From the IMG/VR virus record IMGVR_UViG_3300025769_000684, positions 1-26,949 of that record: a stretch of 26,949 nt of DNA; one strand, written 5' to 3'. Shown in pieces: positions 661 through 26,949 of the stretch. Origin of the DNA: a virus. The notes below the pieces were generated by a model, which worked only from the letters and a program-made list of their open reading frames with translations, did not search any database and was not told the DNA's origin. How positions within the stretch are numbered: the stretch's first letter is position 1; each line of letters begins with the position of its first letter. The position numbers were made by a program, and so were the translations under genes.

Positions 661-1946
661 TTTTCTTCAAATATCTCGTCGAATGTGGTATCTGGTTGTG
701 TATGCTCATACCATGCTTCTATTCTGGTTTCTGCTATGTTTACATAATCTTCATCTAACTCGCAACCTGTGAAGTCATAGTCTAACTCCACAGCCGCCAT
801 ACCTGTTGATCCTGATCCACAGAAAGGATCTAATACCTTACCACCTGGTGGTGTAACTAATTTAACCAAATACTTCATTAGTTCTACTGGCTTTACAGTA
901 GGGTGGTTGTTTCCTGCGTTTTGTTTAGTATCTTGGTACATACCTACTTGCATACCACTTTCATATCTATCTTGTAACATACCATTTGGATTTGTGGGTA
1001 TATGAGCAAGAGGGTCTGCTTTTTTCTTACTATTACCTTGATACTCTTGATGCTTTACTGCCATTCTTTCACCATCAACATACGCACCTTTGACATCACC
1101 AAACAGTGCTGGTATTTCTTTTTCTTCAAATCCACAATGCCTTTCTTTACGGCTTACTTTAGGACAATAGAAGAACTTTTGATAGCCTTCAACTTCACCT
1201 AACACATTTGAGGGGAATCTTCCTTGAACTGTTTCATCTGCAAAAGCACTCTTTTTATTGCTGTCGAATAAGGAACGTGTTTGTTCGTGTGCACCTATAG
1301 GCATTTCTTCTGCCCCTACCCTGGTAGCATCTATATTAAGAGCACCTACACCGTGAGTTAATACATTGTCTATGGCACTGCCCTTAAATGGCTTACGGGC
1401 CATCACTATAGGTTCATGTGCTGGCTTGAGTGCTGTTTTCCAGCCACTCCATTGTTTTGCTTCTGGTGATGTGGGTATTATTTCATCTTTCTTATCTGGA
1501 TAATCTTCTGCTGTAATATTACCTGGATTGACACCTCTATTGCCACCATTCTTAACATCTTCTGGATAAGCATTCATACCTTTTGAGGGTTTACTCTTTT
1601 CAACCCCTTGTCTTCTCTGTATGGCCTTGCCAATGTCCTGTGCTTTGGGGAATCCTGAAGCATACAACCACATTAGTTGATCTCTTATTTCAAACCCTAC
1701 ACCTTCTATGTTAGTGGCTAAGTGATGATATGTTCTTGCGGCTGAGAACGCCAATAAATATCCACCTGGCTTTAACACTCTGAAGCATTCTTGCCAAGTT
1801 TCCACTGCACCAGTATTTGAGTCCCAGTCTTTGCCTAAGAACTCTATGCCATATGGTGGATCTGTGACTATGCTGTCGAAATGGTTATCAGGATATGTTT
1901 TGAGGGTGTCTATGTTATTACCCTGCTTTATGGTGAATTGCTTCAT
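657..1946 (-). CDS. DNA methyltransferase, beta class (N6-adenine or N4-cytosine)
   Basis: Transfers methyl from S-adenosylmethionine to the exocyclic amine of A or C in DNA. The catalytic motif DPPY is at residues 29-32. The SAM-binding motif FCGSGSTG starts near residue 375. This order (motif IV first, motif I last) defines the beta class. Between them is a long target-recognition region; the stretch VMARKPF (about residues 180-190) and the following NVL.HG.GALNID segment are typical of phage and plasmid adenine methylases. It is 429 residues long and looks intact. The ATG at 1946 has AGGA about 8 nt upstream. No cognate restriction enzyme is visible, so protection of phage DNA from host restriction is the simplest role, but this is inferred. 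It sits between the two terminase subunits. Confidence 0.93.
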   Translation of the reverse strand: MKQFTIKQGNNIDTLKTYPDNHFDSIVTDPPYGIEFLGKDWDSNTGAVETWQECFRVLKPGGYLLAFSAARTYHHLATNIEGVGFEIRDQLMWLYASGFPKAQDIGKAIQRRQGVEKSKPSKGMNAYPEDVKNGGNRGVNPGNITAEDYPDKKDEIIPTSPEAKQWSGWKTALKPAHEPIVMARKPFKGSAIDNVLTHGVGALNIDATRVGAEEMPIGAHEQTRSLFDSNKKSAFADETVQGRFPSNVLGEVEGYQKFFYCPKVSRKERHCGFEEKEIPALFGDVKGAYVDGERMAVKHQEYQGNSKKKADPLAHIPTNPNGMLQDRYESGMQVGMYQDTKQNAGNNHPTVKPVELMKYLVKLVTPPGGKVLDPFCGSGSTGMAAVELDYDFTGCELDEDYVNIAETRIEAWYEHTQPDTTFDEIFEEK

Positions 1947-1955
1947 ATCTTTTTC

Positions 1956-1997
1956 CTATAAATCGTTAGTGTGTTGAACGACTATATTGACACACAT
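1956..1997 (-). other. Leader micro-ORF (13 codons), in frame with the methyltransferase behind an amber stop
   Basis: The strongest Shine-Dalgarno in this gap (GGAGG, 2008-2012) does not serve the methyltransferase ATG at 1946. It precedes an ATG at 1997 by 10 nt. That frame runs 13 codons (MCVNIVVQHTNDL) to TAG at 1956-1958 and then continues in the same frame into the methyltransferase. It may be a leader peptide controlling the methylase, a decayed N-terminus, or chance. The amber is probably a true stop, because other genes here end in TAG. Confidence 0.35.
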
Positions 1998-2050
1998 ATA
2001 ACAGTTTCCTCCTTTTGAAGTTAAAGTTAATTGATTATGTCGTTCAACAC
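1971..2050. repeat. 12-bp perfect inverted repeat around the leader of the methyltransferase
   Basis: GTGTTGAACGAC at 1971-1982 and its exact complement GTCGTTCAACAC at 2039-2050 are separated by 56 bp. The arms enclose the strong ribosome binding site and the start of the 13-codon leader ORF, and one arm ends just past the terS stop. The pair could fold as a stem in mRNA, be a dimeric protein site, or relate to terminase recognition of DNA. The sequence does not decide between these. Confidence 0.8.
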
Positions 2051-2052
2051 AG

Positions 2053-2526
2053 TTATTTATCTGACTCAGAATCAAGCCATGGTAACACTTGATTACTTTC
2101 ACTGCTTACTGGTGAGTCACTTTGTCCAAGTAAATTTTTACCTAACCAAATCAACATAACACGATCTTTACCATTTAGTGCTAGGTCTAATTGTGCTTTA
2201 CGCAATCTCTGTTTAGTGATCAGTCTATTTTTGTCTATGATATCACGAAAGTTGTCCATAAAGGTCTGTAATGGCACCCCATAAAAGTCTGCCATTTCTT
2301 TGTTTGTGCAGTGATATTGACTTAGTTGTGCTACTTCTTCTTCTGGTATAACGGTTTTGTTACGGCCTATAACACGACCTACCACTGTTTTTTCGCCATA
2401 TTTAATCTTCTTTACACGATAATGTTTATCTTGTTCTGTGGCTTCTTGGTGTGCTTTTGAACCTTCACTCTGGTTCTCTGGTGTTAGTGGTTTGCTATCT
2501 GAAAAGTCTTCATGTTCAGTTGACAT
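2053..2526 (-). CDS. terS: Terminase small subunit
   Basis: DNA-recognition subunit of the packaging machine; it forms a ring that selects phage DNA and hands it to the large subunit. The 157-residue protein has a charged, disordered N-terminus (about 1-55). A helix-turn-helix-like region follows, reading VAQLSQYHCTNKEMADFYGV (about 65-85). Next comes a helical oligomerisation segment rich in Leu, Lys and Arg (about 95-130), and then the KDRVMLIWLGKNLLGQSD motif seen in many phage small-terminase proteins. The length is normal for the family. The ATG at 2526 has an AGGAG site. It precedes the methyltransferase and the large terminase in the same direction, the expected order apart from the inserted methylase. 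The specific DNA site it binds is not identifiable here. Confidence 0.85.
   Translation of the reverse strand: MSTEHEDFSDSKPLTPENQSEGSKAHQEATEQDKHYRVKKIKYGEKTVVGRVIGRNKTVIPEEEVAQLSQYHCTNKEMADFYGVPLQTFMDNFRDIIDKNRLITKQRLRKAQLDLALNGKDRVMLIWLGKNLLGQSDSPVSSESNQVLPWLDSESDK
2054..2061 (-). promoter_or_regulatory. NATAAATA motif (GATAAATA) upstream of the methyltransferase leader
   Basis: GATAAATA read on the minus strand, at the very end of terS and next to the right arm of the inverted repeat. It matches the T4-type late promoter form NATAAATA reported for T4-like cyanophages. It is also simply the coding sequence Asp-Lys-stop, so it may be coincidence. Confidence 0.25.
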
Positions 2527-2575
2527 TGCGTTCTCCTGTAATCAGTGTTTTTCGCCACTGTATGCGTTGTGCTAA

Positions 2576-2583
2576 TATTTATC
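2576..2583 (-). promoter_or_regulatory. NATAAATA motif upstream of terS
   Basis: GATAAATA on the minus strand, overlapping the HNH stop codon and about 50 nt upstream of the terS start. It is a possible late promoter element. The AT-rich context makes chance matches likely. Confidence 0.25.
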
Positions 2584-3043
2584 TTTTTGTGGGATTGTAG
2601 TAGGGATTTCCCCATTTCTTTAGCCTATTACTGAGTGTTGCTGGTGCTATACCCAGTTCTAGTGCAAATTCACCACGTGTTTTACCATATGTTTTTATGT
2701 AATCCACACCACGTAATCTACCACGACTCCTTGCATCATGACTGTTCTGCAGATGTGTACCTGCAGTTAAATGTTGGGGATTACAACACCGCCTACAATC
2801 ACAATTGTGCATGATTAAGCAATCTTTGGGCAATCTCCCATGATGATACAGATAACTGAGTTTGTGTACAGTGACATGATAACTGTTTTGTGGTAAATCT
2901 GTCATGTTTTCACATATCACCATGCCATAACCACTGCTGTTAACATAACCATTCCAAATCCAACAGCCATCATTATTCACTGAAATTTTGTGCTGTATAC
3001 TATGCCATTTTTGTGAGATGTTGCTGTGTAGACGTCTACCCAT
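2579..3043 (-). CDS. HNH endonuclease with C-terminal HTH domain
   Basis: Metal-dependent DNA nuclease of the HNH_3 type, probably a free-standing homing endonuclease. The opening motif GCWIWNGYVNSSGYG (residues 26-40) is typical of this family. The core has H60, then H79-N80, a Cys cluster (81-87), N88, H91 and N100. Residues 118-150 form an HTH unit (YGKTRGEFALELGI, then RLKKWGNPYY) that recurs in the gene at the right edge of the window. The length of 154 is normal. It lies directly before terS. HNH proteins beside terminases can help cos cleavage, but the C-terminal HTH fits homing enzymes better. A TATAAATA motif lies 23 nt upstream of its ATG. Confidence 0.9.
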   Translation of the reverse strand: MGRRLHSNISQKWHSIQHKISVNNDGCWIWNGYVNSSGYGMVICENMTDLPQNSYHVTVHKLSYLYHHGRLPKDCLIMHNCDCRRCCNPQHLTAGTHLQNSHDARSRGRLRGVDYIKTYGKTRGEFALELGIAPATLSNRLKKWGNPYYNPTKR

Positions 3044-3527
3044 TATATAAACTCCCTGTGTATATTATTTATAAGAGGTAACTTGAACCAAGTGATTAAT
3101 AGGTGAATTATATTAGGTCTAGAGACCTTTTCATTTCACAACCACTTCGTGAGTTGTTTCATGAAACTTTCTTCTTACACATTCTGTTTTAGAAGTTTCA
3201 GTCAGAAGGAACCACTCTTGGTTCCCTCCTCATTCTGTATTCATTGTGTACAGCCATATAAGGGAGCAGGTATTTTATTATACACAATGTCCAATGGATC
3301 TCTTACTCACTCCACACCTGCTAAGGCCTTGTATATGCTTCGTTCTCTACACATATATTGTTTATGAACTTGTTTGTGTTTTCGACATAACAGAATAATG
3401 TCTTACCTTAATTCTTACAGTGGTATGCTGTGAATCTCAGTTTTAAGAGTCTATACAAGTTATCTTGGTCTCATATAGCCTTGATCTCTGGTCTTTATAT
3501 CCGGTGACTAACCTTATGTTCTGTTTG
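3044..3527. ncRNA. Non-coding, hairpin-rich region, candidate structured RNA (strand uncertain)
   Basis: 484 bp with no convincing gene on either strand; the one frame listed here (3149-3367, plus) has no ribosome binding site. Perfect or near-perfect stems follow one another: GGTC/GACC at 3117-3128, ACAAC/GTTGT at 3139-3157, GAAACTT/AAGTTTC, GGAACCA/TGGTTCC at 3208-3225, TATATG/CATATA at 3332-3357, GACAT/ATGTC at 3384-3402, and a nested CTATA-CAAG/CTTG-TATAG at 3451-3478. Stems at 3242-3250/3281-3289 (9 bp) and 3265-3271/3316-3322 (7 bp) cross, giving a pseudoknot topology. Two imperfect direct repeats starting TGGTCT lie at 3466-3480 and 3489-3504. Read on the minus strand it would be transcribed between the 66-residue gene and the HNH gene. 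I could not find group I intron P7 motifs or a tRNA in it. Confidence 0.5.
3066..3073 (-). promoter_or_regulatory. TATAAATA late-promoter-like motif upstream of the HNH gene
   Basis: Exact TATAAATA on the minus strand, 23 nt upstream of the HNH ATG at 3043. This is the T4 late promoter -10 consensus and is well placed to start a leader of about 10-15 nt. Whether this phage encodes a matching late sigma factor cannot be seen here. Confidence 0.4.
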
Positions 3528-3728
3528 TTAAATGCCTAATCTACGACTTAGTTCCATTTGTATTATTGTGTGTTGTGGACCATTTGTTCTATATTCGTCC
3601 AAACCCCATTTTAAGTAATGCAACGGTAGATCTTTTAATTTTTTGCCTTGATGTTTGCCTGGGAATTGCCATGTTTCGTTCTCAATGAAACGTGAGAATT
3701 GTTTTGTCTTTTTTTGTGTTTTTGCCAT
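3528..3728 (-). CDS. Small protein resembling DUF3820 / QSregVF family
   Basis: 66 residues. A basic, Gln- and Lys-rich N-terminus (1-20) is followed by FPGKHQGKKLKDLPLHYLKW (about 23-42). This fits the F-GK-x-KG-x-x-L-x-x-LP-x-x-YL-x-W signature of the short DUF3820 / putative quorum-sensing-regulated virulence factor fold, which is also found attached to DNA-processing enzymes in phages. The molecular role of the family is unclear. The ATG at 3728 has only a weak AAAGA-type ribosome binding site. A TATAAATA motif lies about 42 nt upstream (3770-3777). It is the first minus-strand gene left of the rightward island and is followed by the structured non-coding region. Confidence 0.65.
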   Translation of the reverse strand: MAKTQKKTKQFSRFIENETWQFPGKHQGKKLKDLPLHYLKWGLDEYRTNGPQHTIIQMELSRRLGI

Positions 3729-3769
3729 AATGTTCTTTGTTATTAATATTTATGTTTATTTTGTAATAA

Positions 3770-3777
3770 TATTTATA
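3770..3777 (-). promoter_or_regulatory. TATAAATA late-promoter-like motif upstream of the 66-residue gene
   Basis: Exact TATAAATA on the minus strand, 41 nt before the start codon at 3728, within a very AT-rich stretch. A role as a promoter is inferred from placement only. Confidence 0.35.
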
Positions 3778-3811
3778 TATAGGTGATTTTGAGCCACTTA
3801 TAAATTGGTTT

Positions 3812-3890
3812 TTGCTTATTGTAAATAAATATTATTGTATAAGCAATTCCCTTAAGTATTGCCATATTTTCGATGTTATATTGCTTATAC
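3812..3890 (+). promoter_or_regulatory. Three alternating complementary repeats: possible RNA switch or small RNA
   Basis: TTGCTTAT occurs at 3812-3819 and again inside ATTGCTTATAC at 3880-3890. Its complement lies between them inside GTATAAGCAAT at 3837-3847. The middle copy can pair with the left copy (8 bp, 19-nt loop) or perfectly with the right copy (11 bp, 32-nt loop), but not both. A terminator hairpin follows 28 nt downstream. This arrangement fits an attenuator, a small RNA ending at 3958, or a set of protein sites. No clear promoter for such an RNA was found, so function is open. Confidence 0.45.
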
Positions 3891-3918
3891 TCCCTGCACA
3901 GGAACCGGAATAGTGTTT

Positions 3919-3958
3919 AAACCCCCTTTTAGTACTCATCTTTTAGGGGGTTTTTTTT
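3919..3958 (+). terminator. Rho-independent terminator (plus strand)
   Basis: Perfect 9-bp stem AAACCCCCT (3919-3927) and AGGGGGTTT (3945-3953), with the T run continuing to 3958. It lies just upstream of the rightward promoter. It would either end an RNA made from the 3812-3890 element or insulate the island from upstream transcription. Confidence 0.85.
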
Positions 3959-3968
3959 GACAAAAAGG

Positions 3969-3997
3969 TTGACCTGTACTGATAAATGTACTATAAT
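3969..3997 (+). promoter_or_regulatory. Sigma70-like promoter with dyad over the -10 box
   Basis: TTGACC at 3969-3974, a 17-bp spacer and a perfect TATAAT at 3992-3997, followed 33 nt later by the first gene of the island. ATGTAC (3986-3991) and GTACAT (4000-4005) form an inverted repeat exactly bracketing the -10 box. TGTAC also occurs at 3975-3979. The dyad is a plausible repressor operator. Confidence 0.85.
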
Positions 3998-4029
3998 ATG
4001 TACATATTAAACAAAAAGGAGGTGGCGTA

Positions 4030-4311
4030 ATGGATACTATAACTTTAGAAGGACAATTTTGTGGTATAGACCATGATCTAGAATGTGGTATCAAATTAGG
4101 TGTATATGGCAAATTAGATTTTAATATTATAGATGGTGAATATTCACCAGTTAGTAATTGGCTAAACATATTAGACAAACAATTTGGCAGTAATGCATGG
4201 AATTGCTTTGAGGTTAGTGGCATCATTGATCATATGAATGCTTTTCACTATACAGGTGACTACGGTAGAAGCAATATCTTAATTGAATTAGACCGTGAGA
4301 GGGTGGCGTAA
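4030..4311 (+). CDS. Unknown small protein, first gene of the rightward island
   Basis: 93 residues, not recognised. The sequence is acidic to neutral, with Gly, Asn and aromatic residues and no membrane segment or Cys-rich motif. The N-terminal part (about 1-45) alternates hydrophobic and polar residues and looks beta-rich. The start is well supported: AAGGAGG at 4016-4022 lies 7 nt before the ATG and 33 nt after a strong promoter. An overlapping minus-strand frame (3936-4226) has no such signals and crosses the promoter and terminator. The stop overlaps the next ATG. The gene's own promoter and terminator suggest expression independent of the late genes. Confidence 0.85.
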   Translation: MDTITLEGQFCGIDHDLECGIKLGVYGKLDFNIIDGEYSPVSNWLNILDKQFGSNAWNCFEVSGIIDHMNAFHYTGDYGRSNILIELDRERVA

Positions 4312-4460
4312 TGTGGCAAATAATCACAGAACCTACAAAAGAATGGATTATTACAAAACCATACTGGAATGACTATGAGTGTGCTGTTGCATACTGTGAA
4401 AGTCTAAACCGTGCATTACCCAATGTTTTCTTTGGAATTAAGTGTATTAATGATAAATAA
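4311..4460 (+). CDS. Unknown 49-residue protein
   Basis: Short gene starting inside the previous stop (TAATG, ATG at 4311-4313) and ending TAA at 4458-4460. The product starts MWQIITEPTKEWIITKPYW; it has three Trp in the first 19 residues and two Cys in the middle, with no membrane segment. Its start region repeats the 12 bases GGTGGCGTAATG found at the start of the gene before it. Coupled translation from the upstream gene is likely. Function is not recognisable. Confidence 0.75.
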   Translation: MWQIITEPTKEWIITKPYWNDYECAVAYCESLNRALPNVFFGIKCINDK

Positions 4461-4482
4461 ATATATACGATAAGGAGATATA

Positions 4483-4896
4483 ATGCACACTATATATTAC
4501 AAAAAACTATCTACTAATGCAACTACTATATATGTCAGAGTAAACAAAACTGACCTCAGTATTATAAAAGAATGGTTAACACACTCACTAAATGTATTAG
4601 GAGAAGCCAGTTACGAACACTATCAGATTAGAAACTGGTTATATGAACCACTGAAAGAACTAGGCAAAGGCAAAAGATACAAAAAACAAAAGTTTAACAG
4701 CATAATGAGTGTTATGTGCGGTATACTAGAACAACACAACAGGACCAAGCCTAAAGATTTATCCATTTATCAGATAAGAAACTGTGAAAGATTGCTTAAA
4801 TGCTTTCAAGTTATGCATTTGTATCTCAAAAAACAAGGTTGGCCATCACAATTAATTGTGCCTTCTTTAAATTTTGTAGATATTGAGGATAAATGA
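4483..4896 (+). CDS. Unknown 137-residue basic protein, last gene of the island
   Basis: Not recognised. The product is Lys- and Tyr-rich and mostly helical by composition, with a basic patch KGKRYKKQKF near residues 62-71 and a helical C-terminal half. A nucleic-acid-binding role is possible but not shown by any motif. The ATG at 4483 has AAGGAG 6 nt upstream. A 22-nt gap separates it from the previous gene. It is followed by two hairpins, the second a strong terminator, so it closes the transcription unit. Confidence 0.8.
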   Translation: MHTIYYKKLSTNATTIYVRVNKTDLSIIKEWLTHSLNVLGEASYEHYQIRNWLYEPLKELGKGKRYKKQKFNSIMSVMCGILEQHNRTKPKDLSIYQIRNCERLLKCFQVMHLYLKKQGWPSQLIVPSLNFVDIEDK

Positions 4897-4906
4897 TAAA
4901 TATAAT

Positions 4907-4929
4907 TGTAATCAATTTCTTTGATTACA
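4907..4929 (+). other. Hairpin in the 3' region of the island
   Basis: TGTAATCAA (4907-4915) and TTGATTACA (4921-4929) form a perfect 9-bp stem with a 5-nt loop. It is followed by a weaker hairpin around CCTATGCTCATAGG (about 4942-4955). Neither has a T run, so they are more likely 3'-UTR structure or mRNA-stabilising elements than terminators. Confidence 0.6.
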
Positions 4930-4987
4930 TGATAACTAATGCCTATGCTCATAGGTATGACATTATCTCCTAAAATATCGTAAAATT

Positions 4988-5013
4988 ATGCCCTCTTCGG
5001 AGGGCATTTTTTT
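4988..5013 (+). terminator. Rho-independent terminator at the end of the island
   Basis: ATGCCCTC (4988-4995), TTCG loop, GAGGGCAT (5000-5007), then six T. This is the classic UUCG-loop terminator form. It touches the stop codon of the convergent minus-strand gene and may also slow transcription from that side, although the reverse strand lacks a good U run. Confidence 0.92.
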
Positions 5014-5335
5014 ATTCATCATATTTAGATTTTTTATTACGCCATTTCATTAGATTCCATTTTTTATCTTTTTTATTATATGTGTATAATTTACTTTTGA
5101 TATTGTTAGCATCGCATATGACTCCTTCAAAATAATAAACTTTGTTAATGGTCTTTTTACCATGCCTGTATTTGCGTCTAAATTTTAAGAAGTGCTCTAA
5201 TACCTCTTTGCCTTCTCCCGTTGCACACAGACGGTCTATGTGCGTCCTAACCTGCCATACTAAATGCTTTGCAGTCTTAATTTGATTGACTTCTTTTTTT
5301 GCTTGTTTGATTAATTGTTTTATTTCTTGGTCCAT
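5012..5335 (-). CDS. Unknown basic protein (107 residues)
   Basis: Lys-rich protein with a helical, probably coiled-coil N-terminal third and a C-terminal half rich in Tyr, Lys and Asn with a beta-like pattern (KKTINKVYYFEGVICDA). Its function is not recognised. I place the start at the ATG at 5335. The frame is open to a TTG at 5356 (114 residues), but neither start has a good ribosome binding site. It is the last minus-strand gene before the convergent terminator and follows the XhlA-like gene, so a link to lysis is possible but unproven. Confidence 0.6.
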   Translation of the reverse strand: MDQEIKQLIKQAKKEVNQIKTAKHLVWQVRTHIDRLCATGEGKEVLEHFLKFRRKYRHGKKTINKVYYFEGVICDANNIKSKLYTYNKKDKKWNLMKWRNKKSKYDE

Positions 5336-5365
5336 ACTTTTATTTAAGTATGCCAAAAATTGTGG

Positions 5366-5599
5366 CTACATATTGCTGGATATGATTGTTGCTACTAGTG
5401 TGACTAATGTACTGAGTACCATCCCAAGAATCCAAAATATTCTATTGTCTAGGCGATCTAACCTACCTTGAAAGAAGTCTCTGTTGTCTTTAACAGCATC
5501 TTTAAGTTCATCTATATCCTCAGCCATGTGGGCAAGATGATTGTTTTTGATCTGCTCAATTTCCTTATGTAATTCTTGGGTGGTAATTCTTTTACTCAT
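5366..5599 (-). CDS. XhlA-like membrane protein, probable holin or holin partner
   Basis: 77 residues with an N-terminal helical, coiled-coil region (about 1-48, heptads with Ile and Leu) and one C-terminal membrane segment (IFWILGMVLSTLVTLVATII, about 54-73). This architecture matches the haemolysin XhlA family, whose members are small phage proteins that act with holins in host lysis. The ATG at 5599 overlaps no gene and lies 1 nt after the micropeptide stop. No endolysin is visible in the window. A structural membrane-anchoring role cannot be excluded. Confidence 0.7.
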   Translation of the reverse strand: MSKRITTQELHKEIEQIKNNHLAHMAEDIDELKDAVKDNRDFFQGRLDRLDNRIFWILGMVLSTLVTLVATIISSNM

Positions 5600-5600
5600 G

Positions 5601-5669
5601 TTACATTCCTAACATATCTTTGATCTTTTGCCATACTTTTTTACAGCATTCTTTAATTTTCTTCCACAT
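5601..5669 (-). CDS. 22-residue cationic amphipathic micropeptide
   Basis: ATG at 5669 to TAA at 5601-5603, 1 nt before the XhlA-like start. The peptide begins MWKKIKECCKKVWQKIK and carries seven Lys against one Glu and one Asp. Hydrophobic residues at 2, 5, 8, 9, 12, 13, 16, 19 and 20 fall on one face of a helix, the pattern of membrane-active peptides. It overlaps the end of the preceding gene by 17 nt in another frame. The ribosome binding site is weak (TAGG). Position beside a lysis-type gene suggests a disruptin-like or lysis-helper peptide. This is inference; it could be a chance ORF. Confidence 0.45.
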   Translation of the reverse strand: MWKKIKECCKKVWQKIKDMLGM

Positions 5670-6036
5670 AACCTAGGTTCTCCCTTAATGTTGTTAATTT
5701 GTCCCGGTCTTGTTGTATAAGACAAGGTACATGTGTTGAATCACCACCTTCTGCAGGGTGACTCCATAAGAATTCACTATGTGTGTATTTTTTGTTCATT
5801 GTGTCTGCTAATTGTTCTAATTGTTTTGCTGACTTGTTTTTGTATACGAATACAAAGGCTTCAAATTTGGTTGCAGGAAATGTACATGCAATAGTGCTTA
5901 AACACTTTTCATCATTTTCCCAAACCAGTATTGAATCCATTAATCTATAACTCCAAGGACATACATTGCGTATTCTCGCAAAGTATTTGACCCATTCACT
6001 ATCCTCTTTTGCTACCTTTCCTTTTAGGTCCACCAC
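5653..6036 (-). CDS. Unknown conserved-looking phage protein (127 residues, GTG start)
   Basis: Soluble protein with CPWSYRL near residues 26-32 and FLWSHPAEGGDSTHVPCLIQQDRDKL in the C-terminal third. The combination of an N-terminal CPWS and a later W-S-P...LIQQDR is one I associate with unassigned proteins of marine phages, but I cannot name a function. No membrane segment is seen. Start: a GTG at 6036 preceded by AAAGGA at a good distance; the next GTG is one codon later. It begins inside the small basic gene (5999-6079) in another frame, so the two may be translationally coupled. Confidence 0.75.
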   Translation of the reverse strand: MVDLKGKVAKEDSEWVKYFARIRNVCPWSYRLMDSILVWENDEKCLSTIACTFPATKFEAFVFVYKNKSAKQLEQLADTMNKKYTHSEFLWSHPAEGGDSTHVPCLIQQDRDKLTTLRENLGYVEEN

Positions 6037-6079
6037 GTTGTCCTTTCTTTTTCTTCATTCCGCCTCTTTGTCCTGGCAT
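5999..6079 (-). CDS. 26-residue Lys/Arg/Gly-rich peptide
   Basis: Strong AAAGGAG ribosome binding site 6 nt before an ATG at 6079, 1 nt after the previous stop; TAG at 5999-6001. The peptide is almost wholly Gly, Lys, Arg and Gln and contains GQRGG twice (residues 3-7 and 13-17). It is likely to bind nucleic acid or be a tiny virion-associated peptide. The strong initiation site supports real translation. Alternatively it drives coupled translation, or a +1 frameshift, into the 127-residue frame that overlaps it by 38 nt. Confidence 0.55.
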   Translation of the reverse strand: MPGQRGGMKKKKGQRGGPKRKGSKRG

Positions 6080-6080
6080 G

Positions 6081-6425
6081 TTATTCTCCTTTTTCTAGTT
6101 TACTGATTTGTTGGTCTACCCAACTTTTTATTCCTGGATAACCCCATAGTGCCATTGCTAAAATAACACCACCGTCTTCAATTGTTTTACCTTGCCGTCT
6201 GGCCCTTTTATAATTAGGTTCGTGTCTTGCTATAAAACTTTTTATTCTTTTTAGTGTGCTTAGGCTCATGTTTTCGCCTTTGGCAATTTGATTTGCTCTT
6301 GCTAAGCCTACACCTGTGCCTGCTCTTTTACTCAAAGGCAACTTTTTGCGTGTTTCTAATGCTTTTCTGGCTGTTTGTTTTGCTGAACTAGGTGCTACTG
6401 GCATTATTCTTCTCTTACTTCCCAT
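6081..6425 (-). CDS. Unknown basic phage protein with GTGVGLARANQIAKGE motif
   Basis: 114 residues from ATG at 6425 (AGG 6 nt upstream); the frame extends to a TTG at 6440, which I consider less likely. A basic N-terminus is followed by ARKALETRKKLPLSKRAGTG, then GLARANQIAKGENMSLSTLK and RIKSFIARHE. A C-terminal GGVILAMALWGYPGIKSWV follows. The order (small helical motif, FxARHE, then a LWG...W segment) recurs in phage proteins that are often annotated only as hypothetical or found next to prohead proteases. I do not assign a function. It overlaps the upstream 70-residue gene by 22 nt. Confidence 0.75.
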   Translation of the reverse strand: MGSKRRIMPVAPSSAKQTARKALETRKKLPLSKRAGTGVGLARANQIAKGENMSLSTLKRIKSFIARHEPNYKRARRQGKTIEDGGVILAMALWGYPGIKSWVDQQISKLEKGE

Positions 6426-6616
6426 TCTGAACCTGTCCAATAAACAGGTTTAGGTATATTCATATTTAAAGAAACACCTTCGTTACTGATTTCCCATGGT
6501 GGTTCTAAGTCTGTTGTTAAACTTTCTAGATGTGTCTCTACTGACAAATCTATATCAGTATCGTTACCTTCTCCCATGTAACGTTTTGTGCTTTTTTCTA
6601 ACCAAAATACTCTCAT
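6404..6616 (-). CDS. Unknown acidic protein (70 residues)
   Basis: Acidic, no membrane segment, with a C-terminal PVYWTGSEWEVREE that resembles the end of small fibre-accessory proteins, but no family is recognised. It starts in the stop of the beta-propeller gene (TAATG) and its end overlaps the next gene, so it belongs to the same translational chain. Its small size and location after the adhesion genes suggest a fibre-related or assembly role; this is inference. Confidence 0.7.
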   Translation of the reverse strand: MRVFWLEKSTKRYMGEGNDTDIDLSVETHLESLTTDLEPPWEISNEGVSLNMNIPKPVYWTGSEWEVREE

Positions 6617-7752
6617 TATGAACTCATTGATCCTACTGGTGTTAATGAGTATGTAAATTGTACATTAGCATCATTAATAGATGTGTTAGCATTACAGTCA
6701 AATCTAAATGCTTTATCTGAGAATTGACTTTGTGCATACACACTACCACTATGTCCTGGGTTAATGGCAAACAATTTTGGTTGGCTTACTGAACTAGTAT
6801 ATTTTGTTCCTGTTTCAGCACTACCATCAATTTCATAAAAGTATTCTTCGTTGAATGCGGCAAAGAACACATTGCCATTTGGTCCTGTACAGGCACCATT
6901 TGTAATTGGTGTACTTCCTGTGGTTACAGTTAAGCCAAATGTTTTTGTTGTAACAGTATCTGTGCTGGTATCTATGTGTAAGAAGTTACTCACATTGTGT
7001 GGACCACCTATCACATTTCCTGTGTTATCTACTGCGGCACTGGTATATTTGCCAGTTATGCCTGTTGCTATTGTACTCATTGAGTCTGCTACAGGATCAT
7101 ATTTGTGTACAGTACTGCCACCTTCTGGTACTATATAAACATTACCATTAGGTGCTAAACAAAAGCCTCCCCAAGTAAAACTACCACCACTGGCATCTCC
7201 TACTTGTGTTACAGTTGTGTTACCAGGTGTGTATCTAATCATTTTGTGATTGTCTTTTGGTAAAAATAAATGATCACCGTCTGGTAATGTTAGTGCTTCA
7301 TAATAACTAGGACTACCTGGTCCACCTGTTGTGGTCACCGTTGTTAGTGTATCTGTTGCTGGATCATATTCACCTGGATTATTTGAACCAAATGGGGCAC
7401 ACACAATGTTACCATGTAATCCTAAACTAGCACCTTGGAACTGATTACTACCTGCTGTAGCAGTCATATCTGAATATGTGTTAGTAGAGGTATCTAATTT
7501 GACAAAATTACCACTTTCACGTGGTACTATGTACATATCTTGATCAGTAAACGATACTATGGTACTACCATGTACAGTTACATCTGGTGTTATGTTATCA
7601 TTGAATACTGTTGCTGATGTGGCTGTGGCATTTGCTAGATAATTTATGTATTGTGCTTCTGTAGGCACATTAGGATAATCAGGCAACACATTACCAGCAG
7701 GTGCTGGTGCTGCCGCAGTATGAAAGAATCCTTGTCTAGCACTAAATGGCAT
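6616..7752 (-). CDS. Probable seven-bladed beta-propeller tail protein (receptor binding)
   Basis: 378 residues. After an N-terminal linker (about 1-60) the sequence repeats a unit of about 40-50 residues: G/D-N-V-Y-I-x-P, a short turn, then (K/R)-(Y/F/L)-D-(P/T)-x-(T/A)-(D/N)-(T/S). I count seven copies, with cores such as MYIVPRESGNFVKLDTST, VYIVPEGGSTVHKYDPVADS and VFFAAFNEEYFYEIDGSA, which points to a seven-bladed propeller like NHL or Vgb folds. No signal peptide or membrane segment is seen. It lies downstream of the collagen fibre and a 46-residue gene, with an AGGAG site, so it is probably a virion adhesin that contacts the host surface. Confidence 0.7.
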   Translation of the reverse strand: MPFSARQGFFHTAAAPAPAGNVLPDYPNVPTEAQYINYLANATATSATVFNDNITPDVTVHGSTIVSFTDQDMYIVPRESGNFVKLDTSTNTYSDMTATAGSNQFQGASLGLHGNIVCAPFGSNNPGEYDPATDTLTTVTTTGGPGSPSYYEALTLPDGDHLFLPKDNHKMIRYTPGNTTVTQVGDASGGSFTWGGFCLAPNGNVYIVPEGGSTVHKYDPVADSMSTIATGITGKYTSAAVDNTGNVIGGPHNVSNFLHIDTSTDTVTTKTFGLTVTTGSTPITNGACTGPNGNVFFAAFNEEYFYEIDGSAETGTKYTSSVSQPKLFAINPGHSGSVYAQSQFSDKAFRFDCNANTSINDANVQFTYSLTPVGSMSS

Positions 7753-7760
7753 TTAGGCTC

Positions 7761-7901
7761 CTATAGAAATTCTTGTATTGATGCAAGGAATTCGTCAGCA
7801 CTTGCTTTATCTGTTATTATACCATTGCCAACCATACCATTTGCTCTTATTTCTGGTACGCCTGCGTCAATTAAATATTGTATTAGTTGTTCTGTTGTCA
7901 T
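7761..7901 (-). CDS. Unknown 46-residue protein between fibre and propeller genes
   Basis: ATG at 7901 with AGGAG overlapping the fibre stop, ending TAG at 7761-7763 just before the next ribosome binding site. The product starts MTTEQLIQYLIDAGVPE and ends DEFLASIQEFL. Two short amphipathic helices flank a Gly/Asn turn, like a tiny helical adaptor. The tight spacing on both sides and good ribosome binding site make it a real gene. Function unknown; a fibre assembly or capping role is a guess. Confidence 0.75.
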   Translation of the reverse strand: MTTEQLIQYLIDAGVPEIRANGMVGNGIITDKASADEFLASIQEFL

Positions 7902-7910
7902 TAATTACTC

Positions 7911-10900
7911 CTATGCGTATGCTTTGGTTAAACTTGCGTAATATGTAGTACCATCATAGAACACACTTATGACATCTATGCTGTTAGGTGCTGTACTTAG
8001 TGTTTTATCACCACCTGCAAACTTCATACTACTTGTTAATGCGTGTGAACCTGTGCCATCTTGTGTTATAATAATAGTCATTGATGTACCTGCTACAGCA
8101 TTTGCTATATTGTTAATTGTAATACCGCCTGTTGCTGTTAGTGTGTATATACTACCATTATCAGCATTTAAGGCAATACTTTGATCTCCACTAACACTAC
8201 CTAAGTCTACCTTTGTTTCATTAAACTTCTTGAGTACTGTGTTGTCACCTTGTATAGTACCACCTGTTTGAATACCTGTGCTACTGATATTTGCCCATTC
8301 TACGCCAGACTTGATAGCATTATAACCACCTACTATGTTACCAGCACTAAAGGCGTTTGCTGATTGATAGAAACTGACTTTGTTTGTTCCTAATAATGTG
8401 GTTTCACCATTATTACTTGCCAAGAATAAATGTGCTTCATTGGCATCTGTATCAGTACCTACTTTGCCTTGTGGTGTGCTTACGAAGTATGCATCAGTAC
8501 CTGTGTTTGCAGTCCAGTTTTCACTGGCTGTAAAGTATATACCGCCTGGCAACTGACTTCTTGTTCTTGGGAATGGATTTGTTTGTGTACTACCATACAC
8601 ACCAAATACACCTAAGCCTTGATATTCTCTAGGATAGTATTCTGCAGGATTTAATGATATATTACCTTGGCTACTGTTTAACAGTATTCTTGGTCCACCT
8701 GTACTGACTTCTTCTAGGTTAGCACTATCAGTGCCTTGGATTGTTTTGTCTGTGAACTGAATAAATCTCAATCCTGGTGTTATACTTGGATTTTGTGCGG
8801 CACCTGTGTCATTACCTGGTGAATCAGTACCATTCCATAATGTGGTCATACCAAATGTTGGCCAATAGTTATATCCAAATCCACTGTCATCATATCCAGC
8901 ATCATTACCAATTAATACTACATTGGCAAAACTGGTTGAACCTTTAGTGCTTCTTAAACTTGTTTTTTTGTATTGTCTTCTTGCACTAGAGTAGTAGAAA
9001 TCACTAAATCCTGTCATGGACACATTTGCGCCTGTGAAGTTTGGTACACTACTTGTATCAAATTCTGCTGTACTGTTAGTACCTGTGTCATTGACAAAAT
9101 AATCATTTCTGTCAATTGGTGTTAAATGAGTTACTTCTTGTGGATCTAGAGAAGCAGTACCAGCCATTACCATTTTTCTACCAGTAGTACTGTTTTTTAA
9201 TATATGGAATAATCCTCTATCCCAAGTCCAGTTACCATCCCATGTCCAATCAAATGGTGCTGTTTCACTCATAATAACATTGGCTGTTCTTGTGGTAGAA
9301 TTTGCCAGTGATGTTGTTACAGCATCTATACTTAAAGGATATGTTACTGGTCTGTTTTTGTTACCTTCGCCACCTGTTACTAAACCAAAATTCACAAGTG
9401 CCATGCCATCTTGATAAACATCTGCTACAGGTATTGCACTACCGCCATTGCCTTCTACTTCAGTATAGATACCTGTGATTTGAACTACATTACTGCCTGC
9501 TTTAAAGGTGACTGTGCCACCTGCTGTACATATTAAACCTGTTACATTTGCTACTGGTTGTGTAGATGTACTTGCACTCATGGCATTGAACATTGTCAAA
9601 CTCTTCATTGCATAACCTTGTGAGTCTGCTTCTAATCCAACAGTTTCTACACCATCAATTTCTCTATTTAATTCTGTAAAACCAGTAGTGCCTTTGGTTA
9701 TTAGACTTGCACTCTGATTGTTTTCACTGGTTATGTTGTTTACATCTGTTAATGTATTGCTTAATGAGAATGCATTACTGCCAGTGTCAAAATTGCTGTC
9801 TGGAGTTACAGTTATACCTGTACCATCTGTGGCACCAAGTATAATCTCACCTGTGTTTACATTGTAGATATCATTTGTTCTACCTGCGCCTTGTACACTG
9901 ATCTTACCACTTGAAGCATTTTGTTTGATAACTTTACCAATCTTTTGTACAAGATTTGCTTCTGTTTTAGGTCTACTGCTTGTTAAAGCACCTGCTGTTG
10001 TGGCACTGACAAATAAACTTGTTCCTGGTGTGTCACTAGTGTTCACACTACCTATGTCACCATAAATTATAGCATTACCTGTGTTTGTTGCTGTAACAGG
10101 CTCGTCCATTATACCAAATGCTGGCATTAGACTGGCACTTGAAGCCAATGCTTTGCTGACTTCTGGATTATCTCCTGTGCCACCTGTAATTGCTACAGCA
10201 TCACCTTTTGCTACATCTTCTGCGGCGATAACTACTCTTCTAACTGTAGATACTGTGTCTACAGTACCTGCAGGTCCTTGTGGTCCAGTTGGTCCTGTTG
10301 CACCTTGTGGTCCTGTTGGACCTGGTACTGTACTTGCTGGTCCTGTTGGGCCAGTGACACCAAGTTCTCCTTTTTGTCCTTTGTCTCCAGTTGGTCCAGT
10401 TGTTCCTTGAGCACCCTGTGGTCCTGTTGGGCCAATTGCTCCTTGTGGTCCTTGTGGTCCTGTTGGTCCTGTTGTTCCCTGTGGTCCCTGTGGTCCAGTT
10501 GGTCCAGTAGCACCAAGTTCTCCTTTCTGACCCTTGTCTCCTGCTACACCCTGAGCACCCTGTGGACCTTGTGGTCCAGTTGCACCAGTTGGTCCTGTTG
10601 TACCAGTAGGTCCTTGATCACCTTGTGGTCCTTGTGGTCCAACTTCTCCTTTTGTTCCTTGTGGTCCAGTTGGGCCAGTTGCACCAGTTGTTCCTTGTGG
10701 TCCTACTTCTCCTTTTGTTCCTTGTGGTCCAGTTGGGCCAGTTGGTCCTTGTGGTCCAGTTGCTCCAACTTCTCCTTTTGTTCCTTGTGGTCCTGCGGGT
10801 CCTGTTGGTCCAGTTGGTCCAGTTGGTCCAGCACCTGCATTACTAAATGATAGTACACCTGAACCATCTGTAATTATAACTTGACCGTTAGTACCGTCTG

Positions 10901-12578
10901 TTTTGGGTAGATTATATTTGTCATTTATTCTGACATTACCATAACTTACAAGAATATTTGCATTACCTGGTGAGAGATTAGGGGAACCTTGTCGATATGG
11001 TGTATGTGATAAGAATAATCCTAGTGTTTTATCACTGTCTTTTGTTACAACATCTGAATCACTGTACACTATATCTGTTCTTACTCTTGCAAAACCGTCA
11101 CCACCATCATGATCACTGTATATATCACCGTTCCACCTTGCTGATTGAATTTTATGTGTGGTGATATTTGAAACATTAGCAGTTATACCTGAATTGACAA
11201 ATATTGCACCTGCTGAATCACTCATGCCTTTATGACGACCTTTGCCATCTACTGCTAGTGCTTCACCTTTTCTTGTGGTTAATATGATATCATTTTTATT
11301 TGATACTATACTGGCATTTGCTACAACACCTAATACAGGATTTGAAGTTGCTGTAAAAGATTCTGTACCATCGAATGGTTCATCGAAGTTAGCACCATCT
11401 ATGTGATCAGAGATCCATTGAGATTGAATTCGAATCATACCACTACTTCGTTTACTTTTTTCATGTTGTATACCCATACCTGCTTCTATAGATACATGTG
11501 TATTACCCCAGTAGTTATATGAATTTGCACTATCTTGAAGATTTATTGCATGAGCATTTATTTGAGCAGGTTGATATCTATAACCATTTTCTCTATCATC
11601 GTGACCAGTTATTGATGTAAAGAATCTGTTTAAAGTTAATCCTCCACCATGGTATCTATCACCAGCCGTAAATGCATCACCAATTCCAGCATGTGCTATT
11701 TGTTGGTTGCCCTGTTGATTGGGATTATTACCTTGATTAAAGACACCATTTACATTGCTTCCTGCTGGCGAAGAATATGGGCTTGTAGGCAAACCTGCTA
11801 AAGGTCCTGTTGCACTTCTTTCCTCACCGTTAGGTAAATTTGCTGTATCATTTACAGTTATATTACCTGCATAACCTGTTCGTGTTAAGAAATATCCTTT
11901 ATCTGGTGATTCTAGGTTCATTGGTAGGTGATCACCTATAGAAACAATTGCACTCGAGTGTCTTTTACCTTTATAATATGAATTATTAACACCACTGGCA
12001 TTATCTACTAAGAAATCTTGGTTATCTTTTAATTTAAATTGTGTTTGATAGACATTTGCTGGTTCTCCGCCTTGATAAAATAGCACATTGGCAAAATAAT
12101 TTGTATTGAGATCTGCATGAGATATTCTTTTAACATTTGCATTACCAAATGGAATATCGTCAGGATGGAGTGGCGTTGTTTTATCTACAACTGTGATGTT
12201 TAAGAAACTGGCATTAACATTACCTGTAAATGCTTCATTTGTTACATTTGCTGTGATACTGTCAGCACTGATGTTACCACTGGTACTTCTGATATCATTA
12301 CTGGTTAATATTTTTGTGCTTACAGTATTATCTGATAATTTAGGTAAAACTATATCACTCATTGTGGTAACAGCATCTAATCCTATTACGCCACTGCTAC
12401 TGTTATATGTCACAGGTAGTGTGTTGCTTATTGCAGATCTAATTACACTATTTGAAACTGTGGATGTTTGACCTACTACAATGTTACTGATTGTGCTGGA
12501 TACACTTACATTGGTTAAATCTTCACTGACTGTTACATTACTTGCACTAGTTGTTACTGTTATATTTGAGAATGCCAT
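7911..12578 (-). CDS. Giant tail fibre with collagen-like domain
   Basis: 1555 residues, the largest gene in the window. Residues 1-580 are Ser/Thr/Asn/Val-rich and beta-structured. Residues 582-771 are about 63 Gly-X-Y triplets ([28 protein letters not shown]) interrupted once by STVP; they would form a collagen triple helix and so a trimeric rod. Residues 772-1555 are again beta-rich, with segments such as [15 protein letters not shown] followed by FGIMDEPV, the usual module after collagen rods in marine phage fibres. It ends in TAG. Host adsorption is the likely role. The next genes downstream are probable fibre partners. It shares an operon with the 169-residue virion protein upstream. 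Confidence 0.9.
10266..10835 (-). repeat. Collagen-like Gly-X-Y coding repeat
   Basis: 570 bp of degenerate 9-bp repeats (GGTCC-A/T-GTT-type on the plus strand) encoding Gly-Pro-Thr, Gly-Pro-Gln and Gly-Thr-Lys triplets. Longer cassettes also recur: GTKGEVG four times and [10 protein letters not shown] twice. Such DNA is prone to slippage and recombination, so repeat number may vary among relatives. It creates spurious open frames on the other strand. Confidence 0.95.
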
Positions 12579-22680: not shown

Positions 22681-23902
22681 TTAACCAGCAGATGCTAAAC
22701 CTTGTGGTAAATTGTTACTTCTTACAAATTGGCAACCAATTGCCTGAGTAATTAGACCTTGCAACAAGGCATCATTTGCTAAATCTTGAGCAACTGAACC
22801 AATTGATCCACTTGAGATTCCGCCAATACCATTAAGTTCTTTAGCCAATGCTAATTCTTGTGCTGGTGTTACGAATGCCCAGTAGTAGCCTCCTAGTGTC
22901 GGAGAGTTACTTGCTCTTAGTTCTGCCACAGACGTAGAAAATTGGTCTAATGATGCACCGTTTGATCCACCAATTACTCCGTTAGTTGCAATACTTCTAA
23001 TGAAGTCTGTTCTTAACTGAGCAAACCCATTACGTACTGTTGCAACTATGTCATGATCGTCTGACGAAACGTCGTTGAACATTTTAACTGTAGGTTGTCT
23101 TTTTACTGCGTATGCAACTGCTTCTGGTGACATAACTACTGCTAAGTCACAGTCATTGCCTAATGTGCCTGAGGCGACACCATCAGCACCAACGTTGACG
23201 TTTGCAATGTCTGTCAATGCAGTTTCTGAACCACTTAATGCGACTCTGAAACCTGCTACGTCTGTTGCTTTTGCAATAGCACCACTCAATCTTGTTACGA
23301 TTGCGTTAGATACTGTTGCTAACCCACCATCTTCTAGTGCTTCTTCTGAGATTGTGCTACCTGCACCTCTTTTGTTCACTGTTAATGAAGCAGTTGTAGG
23401 GTTGAAGTTGAATCCGTCATTGATAAGACTAGTGCTTTCTGAAACACTTGAGTTACCTACGGGCCAACTGTTTGTTAGTGGAATCTGCATTTGATTGCCG
23501 ATTGCACCTTCTAATGAATAGTTATTCAAAAGGACTGCTGGATTTGGTAATAATACTGCGTTATCGTAGTCATTGTATATTCACACAAGGTCGTTAATCT
23601 TGTATCGGCATCTTGCCTGCTAACAGTTTCCTGCTAGATTAGACTATATCATCATCCCTTAAGGATGTGTGGCACTTCGGACTACTTAGTCCTACTCCCT
23701 CTCGGGATAGTCGTTGCACCTTCCTAACTATTGCTAGGCTTGGCTCAGGATTGTCTTCAACATTACTTGCTAAGAGGTTCCCTGAATTCACCACATTCTT
23801 CGATAAGGATTTCTCCTTAAAGCCGCCCTACTATATTAACGGTATCAAATCTGCAACCACATTTGAATATAAATCACTAATATCACTTGTTGTAATTGCC
23901 AT
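22681..23902 (-). CDS. Major capsid protein, split by a group I intron (join 23902-23838, 23581-22681)
   Basis: Exon 1 has 65 nt (23902-23838) and exon 2 901 nt (23581-22681). Spliced, they give an uninterrupted 321-residue protein; the junction codon TT+A restores P-L-I-Y-N-D in frame. It starts MAITTSDISDLYSNVVADLI and runs into GAIGNQMQIPLTNSW, then a beta-rich, Ala/Ser/Gly-rich body. Segments such as DLAVVMSPEAVAYAVKRQPT and a WAFVTPAQELALAKEL element are typical of HK97-fold capsid proteins. Without splicing, exon 2 would have to start at a TTG (23529) and lack 39 N-terminal residues. The neighbours (scaffold before, connector after) fit. Shell assembly depends on intron removal. Confidence 0.93.
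23582..23837 (-). other. Group I intron, subgroup IA-like, in the capsid gene
   Basis: 256 nt, no reading frame inside. Core elements in order: P2 AAGGA-GAAA-TCCTT; P3 TGTGGTG with TGCCACA (two wobbles); P4 TTCAGG with CCTGAG; the sequence GGGAACCTCTTAGC, close to the T4 td intron; P6 around CCTA/TAGG; and P7 GACTAT (23712-23707) with ATAGTC (23647-23642). Between P7 and P3' are two extra hairpins, CCC-GAGA-GGG and GGACTAAGTAGTCC, the P7.1/P7.2 that define subgroup IA. P8 is CATCC/GGATG and P9 CTAGCAG-GAAA-CTGTTAG. P1 pairs exon CCGUU with intron GGCGG with a G-U at the splice site, and the intron ends in G. No homing gene inside, so spread would need an enzyme made elsewhere. Confidence 0.93.
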
Positions 23903-26669: not shown

Positions 26670-26949
26670 ATGGCTAAAAGAACTGATTTCAAAGAGAAAT
26701 GGGGCATCAGTTGTAAAGAACTTGCAGAATTAGAAGGTGTCACATGTGAAGCAATTCGTATGCGTGTGCGTAACTTTGGTACACCATTTCAAAGGCGTGG
26801 TAAACCAACCAAGTTTGAAATTAAGTATGGTAAAACATTAGGTGAACTTGCACTAGACTTAGGCATACATCCTATCACAGTTGCACGCCGTGAATACTTA
26901 TATGGTGACGTATATTACAGCACATTTGAAAAACCAGAACTACAAGGTA
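26670..26949 (+). CDS. DNA-binding protein with two HTH units (partial, runs off right edge)
   Basis: 93 codons visible, no stop. Residues 10-40 (KWGISCKELAELEGVTCEAI then RNFGTP) and 52-83 (KYGKTLGELALDLGIHPITV then YLYGDVYY) are two copies of one HTH-like unit. The second copy shares YGKT-x-GE-x-AL-x-LGI-x-P-x-T and the final G-x-x-YY with the C-terminus of the HNH protein at 2579. It may be a regulator, or the N-terminus of a homing-type endonuclease whose catalytic part lies beyond the edge. Driven by its own promoter with a dyad over the -10. Confidence 0.85.
   Translation, partial: MAKRTDFKEKWGISCKELAELEGVTCEAIRMRVRNFGTPFQRRGKPTKFEIKYGKTLGELALDLGIHPITVARREYLYGDVYYSTFEKPELQG

Follow-up and report, generated by a model that had tools for sequence, protein, structure and literature searches.

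A probable td-like self-splicing group IA intron, free of any nuclease gene, in the major capsid gene of tailed phages and its apparent horizontal spread at a single site

The interrupted capsid gene

The window analysed here, positions 1 to 26,949 of the IMG/VR virus record IMGVR_UViG_3300025769_000684, carries on its minus strand a capsid gene in two exons. Exon 1 (23839..23902), placed by the spliced frame and by homologues, comprises 64 nt from the ATG to the first base of codon 22 and ends with U23839, whereas exon 2 (22681..23570) runs to the stop, the spliced protein having 317 amino acids. Between them lies a group IA intron of 268 nt (23571..23838, minus strand) with G23571 as its omega-G, delimited by the match to RF00028, relatives with an empty site, an enumeration of splice-site pairs and the 3' end of the T4 td intron. 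In the unspliced RNA, the frame starting from the ATG at 23902 is read for 23 codons and then meets a double stop; downstream of the intron, the frame in the program-made list begins no earlier than an internal TTG (23529). Overlooked introns can lead to mis-called capsid genes in metagenomic phages; here, exon 1 was lost and the frame was called from that TTG.

The identification of the interrupted gene as the major capsid gene is well supported by its family, gene order and modelled fold. It comes after a portal gene (PHROG 145) and an unassigned gene of 283 aa in the usual scaffold position, and 15 of the 16 family members match the major head protein PHROG 544. Exon 2, modelled with AlphaFold at modest confidence (pLDDT 66.8), finds its top structural match in the capsid of Bordetella phage BPP-1, which has an HK97-like fold; this match is weak (probability 0.90, E 0.027). 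The capsid protein, searched in a 321-aa version against a collection of named phages, gave no match, and relatives were therefore drawn from IMG/VR; bacterial and archaeal genomes contributed a single relative, on a gammaproteobacterial MAG contig, which is intron-free. Two capsid genes of the family, differing from each other, stand in a single 47.9-kb record (IMGVR_UViG_3300037635_000677; L003 and L006), in which the assembly may have fused two phages. Elsewhere in the window, the tail-fibre protein encoded at 7911-12578 (1,555 aa) includes a long G-x-y stretch resembling collagen.

Fold and catalytic core

The insertion in capsid codon 22 matches the Rfam group I model RF00028 on the minus strand over its full length (model positions 1-253) with 102.1 bits and an E value of 1e-25, the gathering cut-off being 50 bits, and RF00028 is the only Rfam family above threshold in the whole window. 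An original prediction, made from the letters of the window, had placed a group I intron with an IA-type core including P7.1 and P7.2 in this codon and had proposed the Rfam model as a check; the end-to-end match well over the gathering score confirms the intron, and both hairpins were found. The folding energy of the intron strand beats that of all 200 dinucleotide shuffles (200/200, z -3.8), and the helices P1, P2, P3, P4, P5, P6, P7, P7.1, P7.2, P8, P9 and P9.1 can be recognised.

Two other introns at the same base, L083 and L120 (described below), permit a comparison of the helices, all of which lie on the minus strand. P1 (23823..23842) pairs the exon bases CCGU (23842-23839) with the guide GCGG (23826-23823), with a U.G pair at the splice site; this pair (U22.G35) is kept in all three introns, and the terminal G corresponds to G23571. 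In L120, P1 reads CCUU/GAGG, a compensatory change relative to the CCGU/GCGG of the window; guide and exon are thereby linked. The P2 hairpin (23804..23819) shows three compensated pairs. P3 (23668..23795; 23795-23791 with 23672-23668) encloses P4, P5, P6, the 5' strand of P7, P7.1 and P7.2, while the guanosine-binding helix P7 (23642..23712; 23712-23708 with 23646-23642) is identical in the three introns. Hairpins P7.1 and P7.2 between P7 and P3 are the hallmark of subgroup IA, and it is because of this insertion (23679..23707; P7.1 23707-23696, P7.2 23692-23679, the latter with two compensated pairs) that the intron is assigned to it. The P8 hairpin (23653..23667) is followed by the P9 region (23583..23637), consisting of P9 (23637-23620), P9.1 (23617-23607) and P9.2 (23605-23599 with 23589-23583). 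P9.2 (AUACAAG/CUUGUGU) was read straight off the sequence and is kept in L120 with altered bases; an alternative P9.2 pairing (23588-23583 with 23578-23573) breaks down in L120 and was rejected.

Altogether, 63 of the 63 helix pairs are standard in each of the three introns, and 15 pairs are changed on both sides, against a mean of 5.0 in shuffled sequences (none of 500 shuffles reaches 15) and 0-2 in slid structures. The structure was drawn on the window sequence, so the pairing itself is favoured over that of the slid versions, but the count of compensated pairs is independent of that. A P10 pairing is suggested by CUAC/GUAG in the window and CUAU/AUAG in L083, but is not evident in L120; P9.0 could not be made out.

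Introns at the same site in divergent phages

Two contigs 99.8% identical to the window (L001 and L002) bear an identical intron, giving three contigs of one species. The contig 3300044512_000396 (L083/L136) belongs to a divergent phage with an intron at the same base, and a more diverged intron occupies that base in a third lineage, contig 3300018036_000300 (L120), where it scores 110.4 bits with RF00028. Sequence comparison establishes the family of the intron, its insertion site, the conservation of its structure and its scattered distribution. A tree of 51 capsid proteins puts the carriers at three separate points, where their nearest relatives are free of the intron, and the supported branches force three changes, which by themselves could also reflect an old presence followed by losses. 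The introns of L083 and the window, however, are identical at 253 of 270 aligned positions (93.7%), whereas the capsid proteins are 55% and their coding DNA 62.5% identical; in the rest of the two phages, identity over the stretches that can be aligned is mostly 72-83%, and 73% in the longest. The best explanation of this gap between intron and capsid coding sequence is that the intron recently entered the same site by horizontal transfer, although no extended co-conversion tract was seen in the flanking exons of the two.

The pattern is that of a mobile intron: the intron is more alike than its flanks, the same site is filled in divergent genomes and close relatives have empty sites. Site-specific horizontal passage between divergent phages is strongly implied, and it is very probable that we are dealing with a self-splicing, td-like group IA intron of a tailed-phage capsid gene which acts as a site-specific mobile element among such phages. 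A further-reaching reading, in which the intron has specialised on one conserved capsid site and is still spreading among divergent phages by a trans-acting or purely recombinational route, retuning P1 and P10 to the codon usage of each recipient, is rather doubtful. The locus offers a natural case of a nuclease-free intron that appears to have crossed between divergent phages at one and the same capsid site. Close relatives free of the intron serve as controls, and the way in which such introns move can thereby be put to the test.

The search for a nuclease

The 268-nt intron contains no nuclease ORF and no room for a homing enzyme, as had been predicted, and none adjoins the capsid gene. For an intron without a nuclease of its own, three routes of movement can be envisaged: recombination after the cut of a trans-acting nuclease, descent from an earlier nuclease-bearing copy, or plain recombination during co-infection. 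We infer both the splicing and the means of movement from the sequences compared.

In collaborative homing, a free-standing nuclease, the gene of which usually adjoins the interrupted gene, cuts the insertion site of an intron. The original prediction had named two potential partners, an HNH gene at 2579 and the gene at the right edge, and neither gains support. No nuclease-like gene other than the HNH gene (2579-3043, HNH_3) turned up in what probably is, taking the window and L001 together, a nearly complete phage genome, and free-standing HNH-type enzymes do act in this way for T4 nrdB and are known beside other phage introns (PMC2988022, PMC10448857). That this gene drives homing here is nevertheless improbable: an intron-free phage (L004) has a 59% identical homologue at the equivalent position, with the same gene following downstream; HNH_3 profile hits exceeding the cut-off came from the window and from five contigs that lack the intron, and none from the other carriers, L083 and L120, both incomplete contigs; and on the joined map the gene would lie some 8-9 kb from the capsid gene. 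The window breaks off at its left end inside a terminase gene and L001 (3-356) begins further along a terminase gene, and for this reason the phage genome, which we estimate at about 30 kb in total, is probably circular or circularly permuted.

As to the right-edge gene (26670-26948; 129 aa in L001), it has neither a Pfam nor a PHROG match, hence no nuclease domain, and counterparts occur in intron-free relatives; it resembles the HNH protein only at the C-terminal part of the latter. A C-terminal segment GKTxGExALxLGIxPxTxxxR is common to both gene products and is found in many relatives, suggesting a shared DNA-binding module. A search for GIY-YIG nucleases in 41 contigs gave nothing above the cut-off, and in the carrier contigs, all of them incomplete, no nuclease to drive homing was found, with HNH_3 and GIY-YIG as the nuclease families searched for across the contigs.

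Proposed splicing and its consequences

In the proposed course of splicing, the end of exon 1 (CCGU) would pair with the guide GCGG in P1 after transcription, a guanosine bound in P7 would attack after U23839, and the freed exon 1 would in turn attack after G23571, joining CCG-U to AC-UAC in a frame of 317 codons. Since unspliced RNA reaches a stop after codon 23, the capsid would be made from spliced RNA only. An essential virion gene with an in-frame intron stop 23 codons past its start might suggest a regulatory switch, in which splicing times head assembly according to, for example, translation or the GTP level; this seems quite unlikely to us, as the intron-free relatives manage without such a control, the scattered distribution fits a mobile passenger, and splicing of the capsid-gene intron of phage LittleE was reported to be efficient (PMC3706429).

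The ends of the intron differ from those first predicted, namely 23837..23582 (256 nt) with an exact capsid frame of 321 codons. Those ends also leave the frame open, with a U before the 5' site and a G at the end of the intron, and they put the 3' site directly after the P9.2 helix. The two versions differ at the RNA junction, where CCGU would be joined to ACUACGAU by the corrected ends and CCGUU to AAUAUACAAUGAC by the 256-nt version (in DNA, ...ATACCGT to ACTACGATAACG and CCGTT to AATATACAATG). When pairs of a U preceding the 5' site and a G ending the intron were enumerated around the intron, 23838..23571 was the only tested pair to yield the motif of the family (product LIPYYDNAV), giving LIP-YYDNAVLLPNP in a capsid frame of 317 codons. 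An alignment with intron-free relatives, likewise suggested at the outset, speaks for the presence of the intron and against the 256-nt boundaries: 81 intron-free capsid loci, from viral contigs and from one bacterial MAG, have the uninterrupted sequence ...ADLIPYYDNAVLLPNP or one close to it, and fit an intron of 268 nt. Their junction motif is LIP-[YF][YF]-DN or a near variant, into which the four residues added in the 321-codon product (LIPLIYNDYDNAV) do not fit, these being present in none of the 81. In L120, moreover, the site homologous to the 256-nt version shifts the frame into stops.

The T4 td intron points to the same 3' end. Its aligned 3' splice site comes after ...ACATAATG, equivalent to G23571, and its last bases, AAGATTAACGACCTTATCTGAACATAATG, align with AAGATTAACGACCTTGTGTGAATATACAATG in the window, each immediately before the splice site; the td junction is fixed by thymidylate synthase homology, between FLG and LPFNIAS. 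Both td and the compensatory changes thus support the corrected ends, and the 256-nt intron, the 3' site of which lies elsewhere, can be considered very unlikely. A degenerate, non-splicing intron in a dead capsid gene is hardly credible, as the intron is identical in three contigs of one species, its core pairs are all intact and covarying, and a phage without a capsid would not persist.

Comparison with known introns

Introns in virion genes have been described in the major capsid gene of LittleE, a tail gene of BAKA and the capsid gene of the lactococcal phage Tuc2009 (PMC3706429). For LittleE and BAKA, splicing was demonstrated by RT-PCR and protein sequencing (PMC3706429), while the intron of the window is known from its sequence. 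As in the window, a virion gene is interrupted in these two phages, removal of the intron restores the frame, the exon ends with U and the intron with G; both phages infect mycobacterial hosts. The LittleE intron is much larger, 819 bp with a LAGLIDADG-like frame as opposed to 268 nt free of a nuclease, whereas the 265-bp BAKA insertion has no nuclease gene and is of similar size (PMC3706429). ORF-less introns moved by free-standing nucleases have been reviewed (PMC3984707, PMC2988022), and nuclease-rich phage loci have been described (PMC10448857).

Kinship with T4 td, which had been proposed from two shared elements, holds for the 3' half, where the local alignment score of 40 exceeds the highest value from 100 shuffles (27), but not for the 5' part with GGGAACCTCT, where a score of 21 falls inside the shuffle range. 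Both are group IA introns with a related 3' domain and a near-identical 3' end (AAGATTAACGACCTT...AATG before the splice site), yet td carries I-TevI, sits in thymidylate synthase, and in its 5' half the alignment does not rise above chance. The tail-tube gene of phage Twort, another virion gene, is annotated as four pieces, and its intron core is similar, with a local score of 87 (shuffles: 27). Of the named phage introns found, that of the pYD6-A DNA polymerase is the closest in sequence (80.8% identity over 65% of the window intron), but, in contrast to the window intron, it carries an HNH_3+NUMOD1 gene; Twort and pYD6-A both differ from the window in host gene and site. With LittleE, BAKA, Tuc2009 and Twort as precedents, the window intron is of a known type, and introns in capsid or other virion genes, ORF-less ones included, are no novelty; it offers an unusually clear case of horizontal spread.

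Further group I introns were encountered among the contigs searched. In L074 (IMGVR_UViG_3300030104_006230), an SU10-type capsid gene at 1648-3167 (PF17236, E 8.8e-14) is apparently split by two of them (1797-2051 and 2668-2886); the intron at 2668-2886 shares about 77% identity with the core of the window intron. The phage contig L061 harbours three RF00028 introns inside 5.5 kb (2445-7970).
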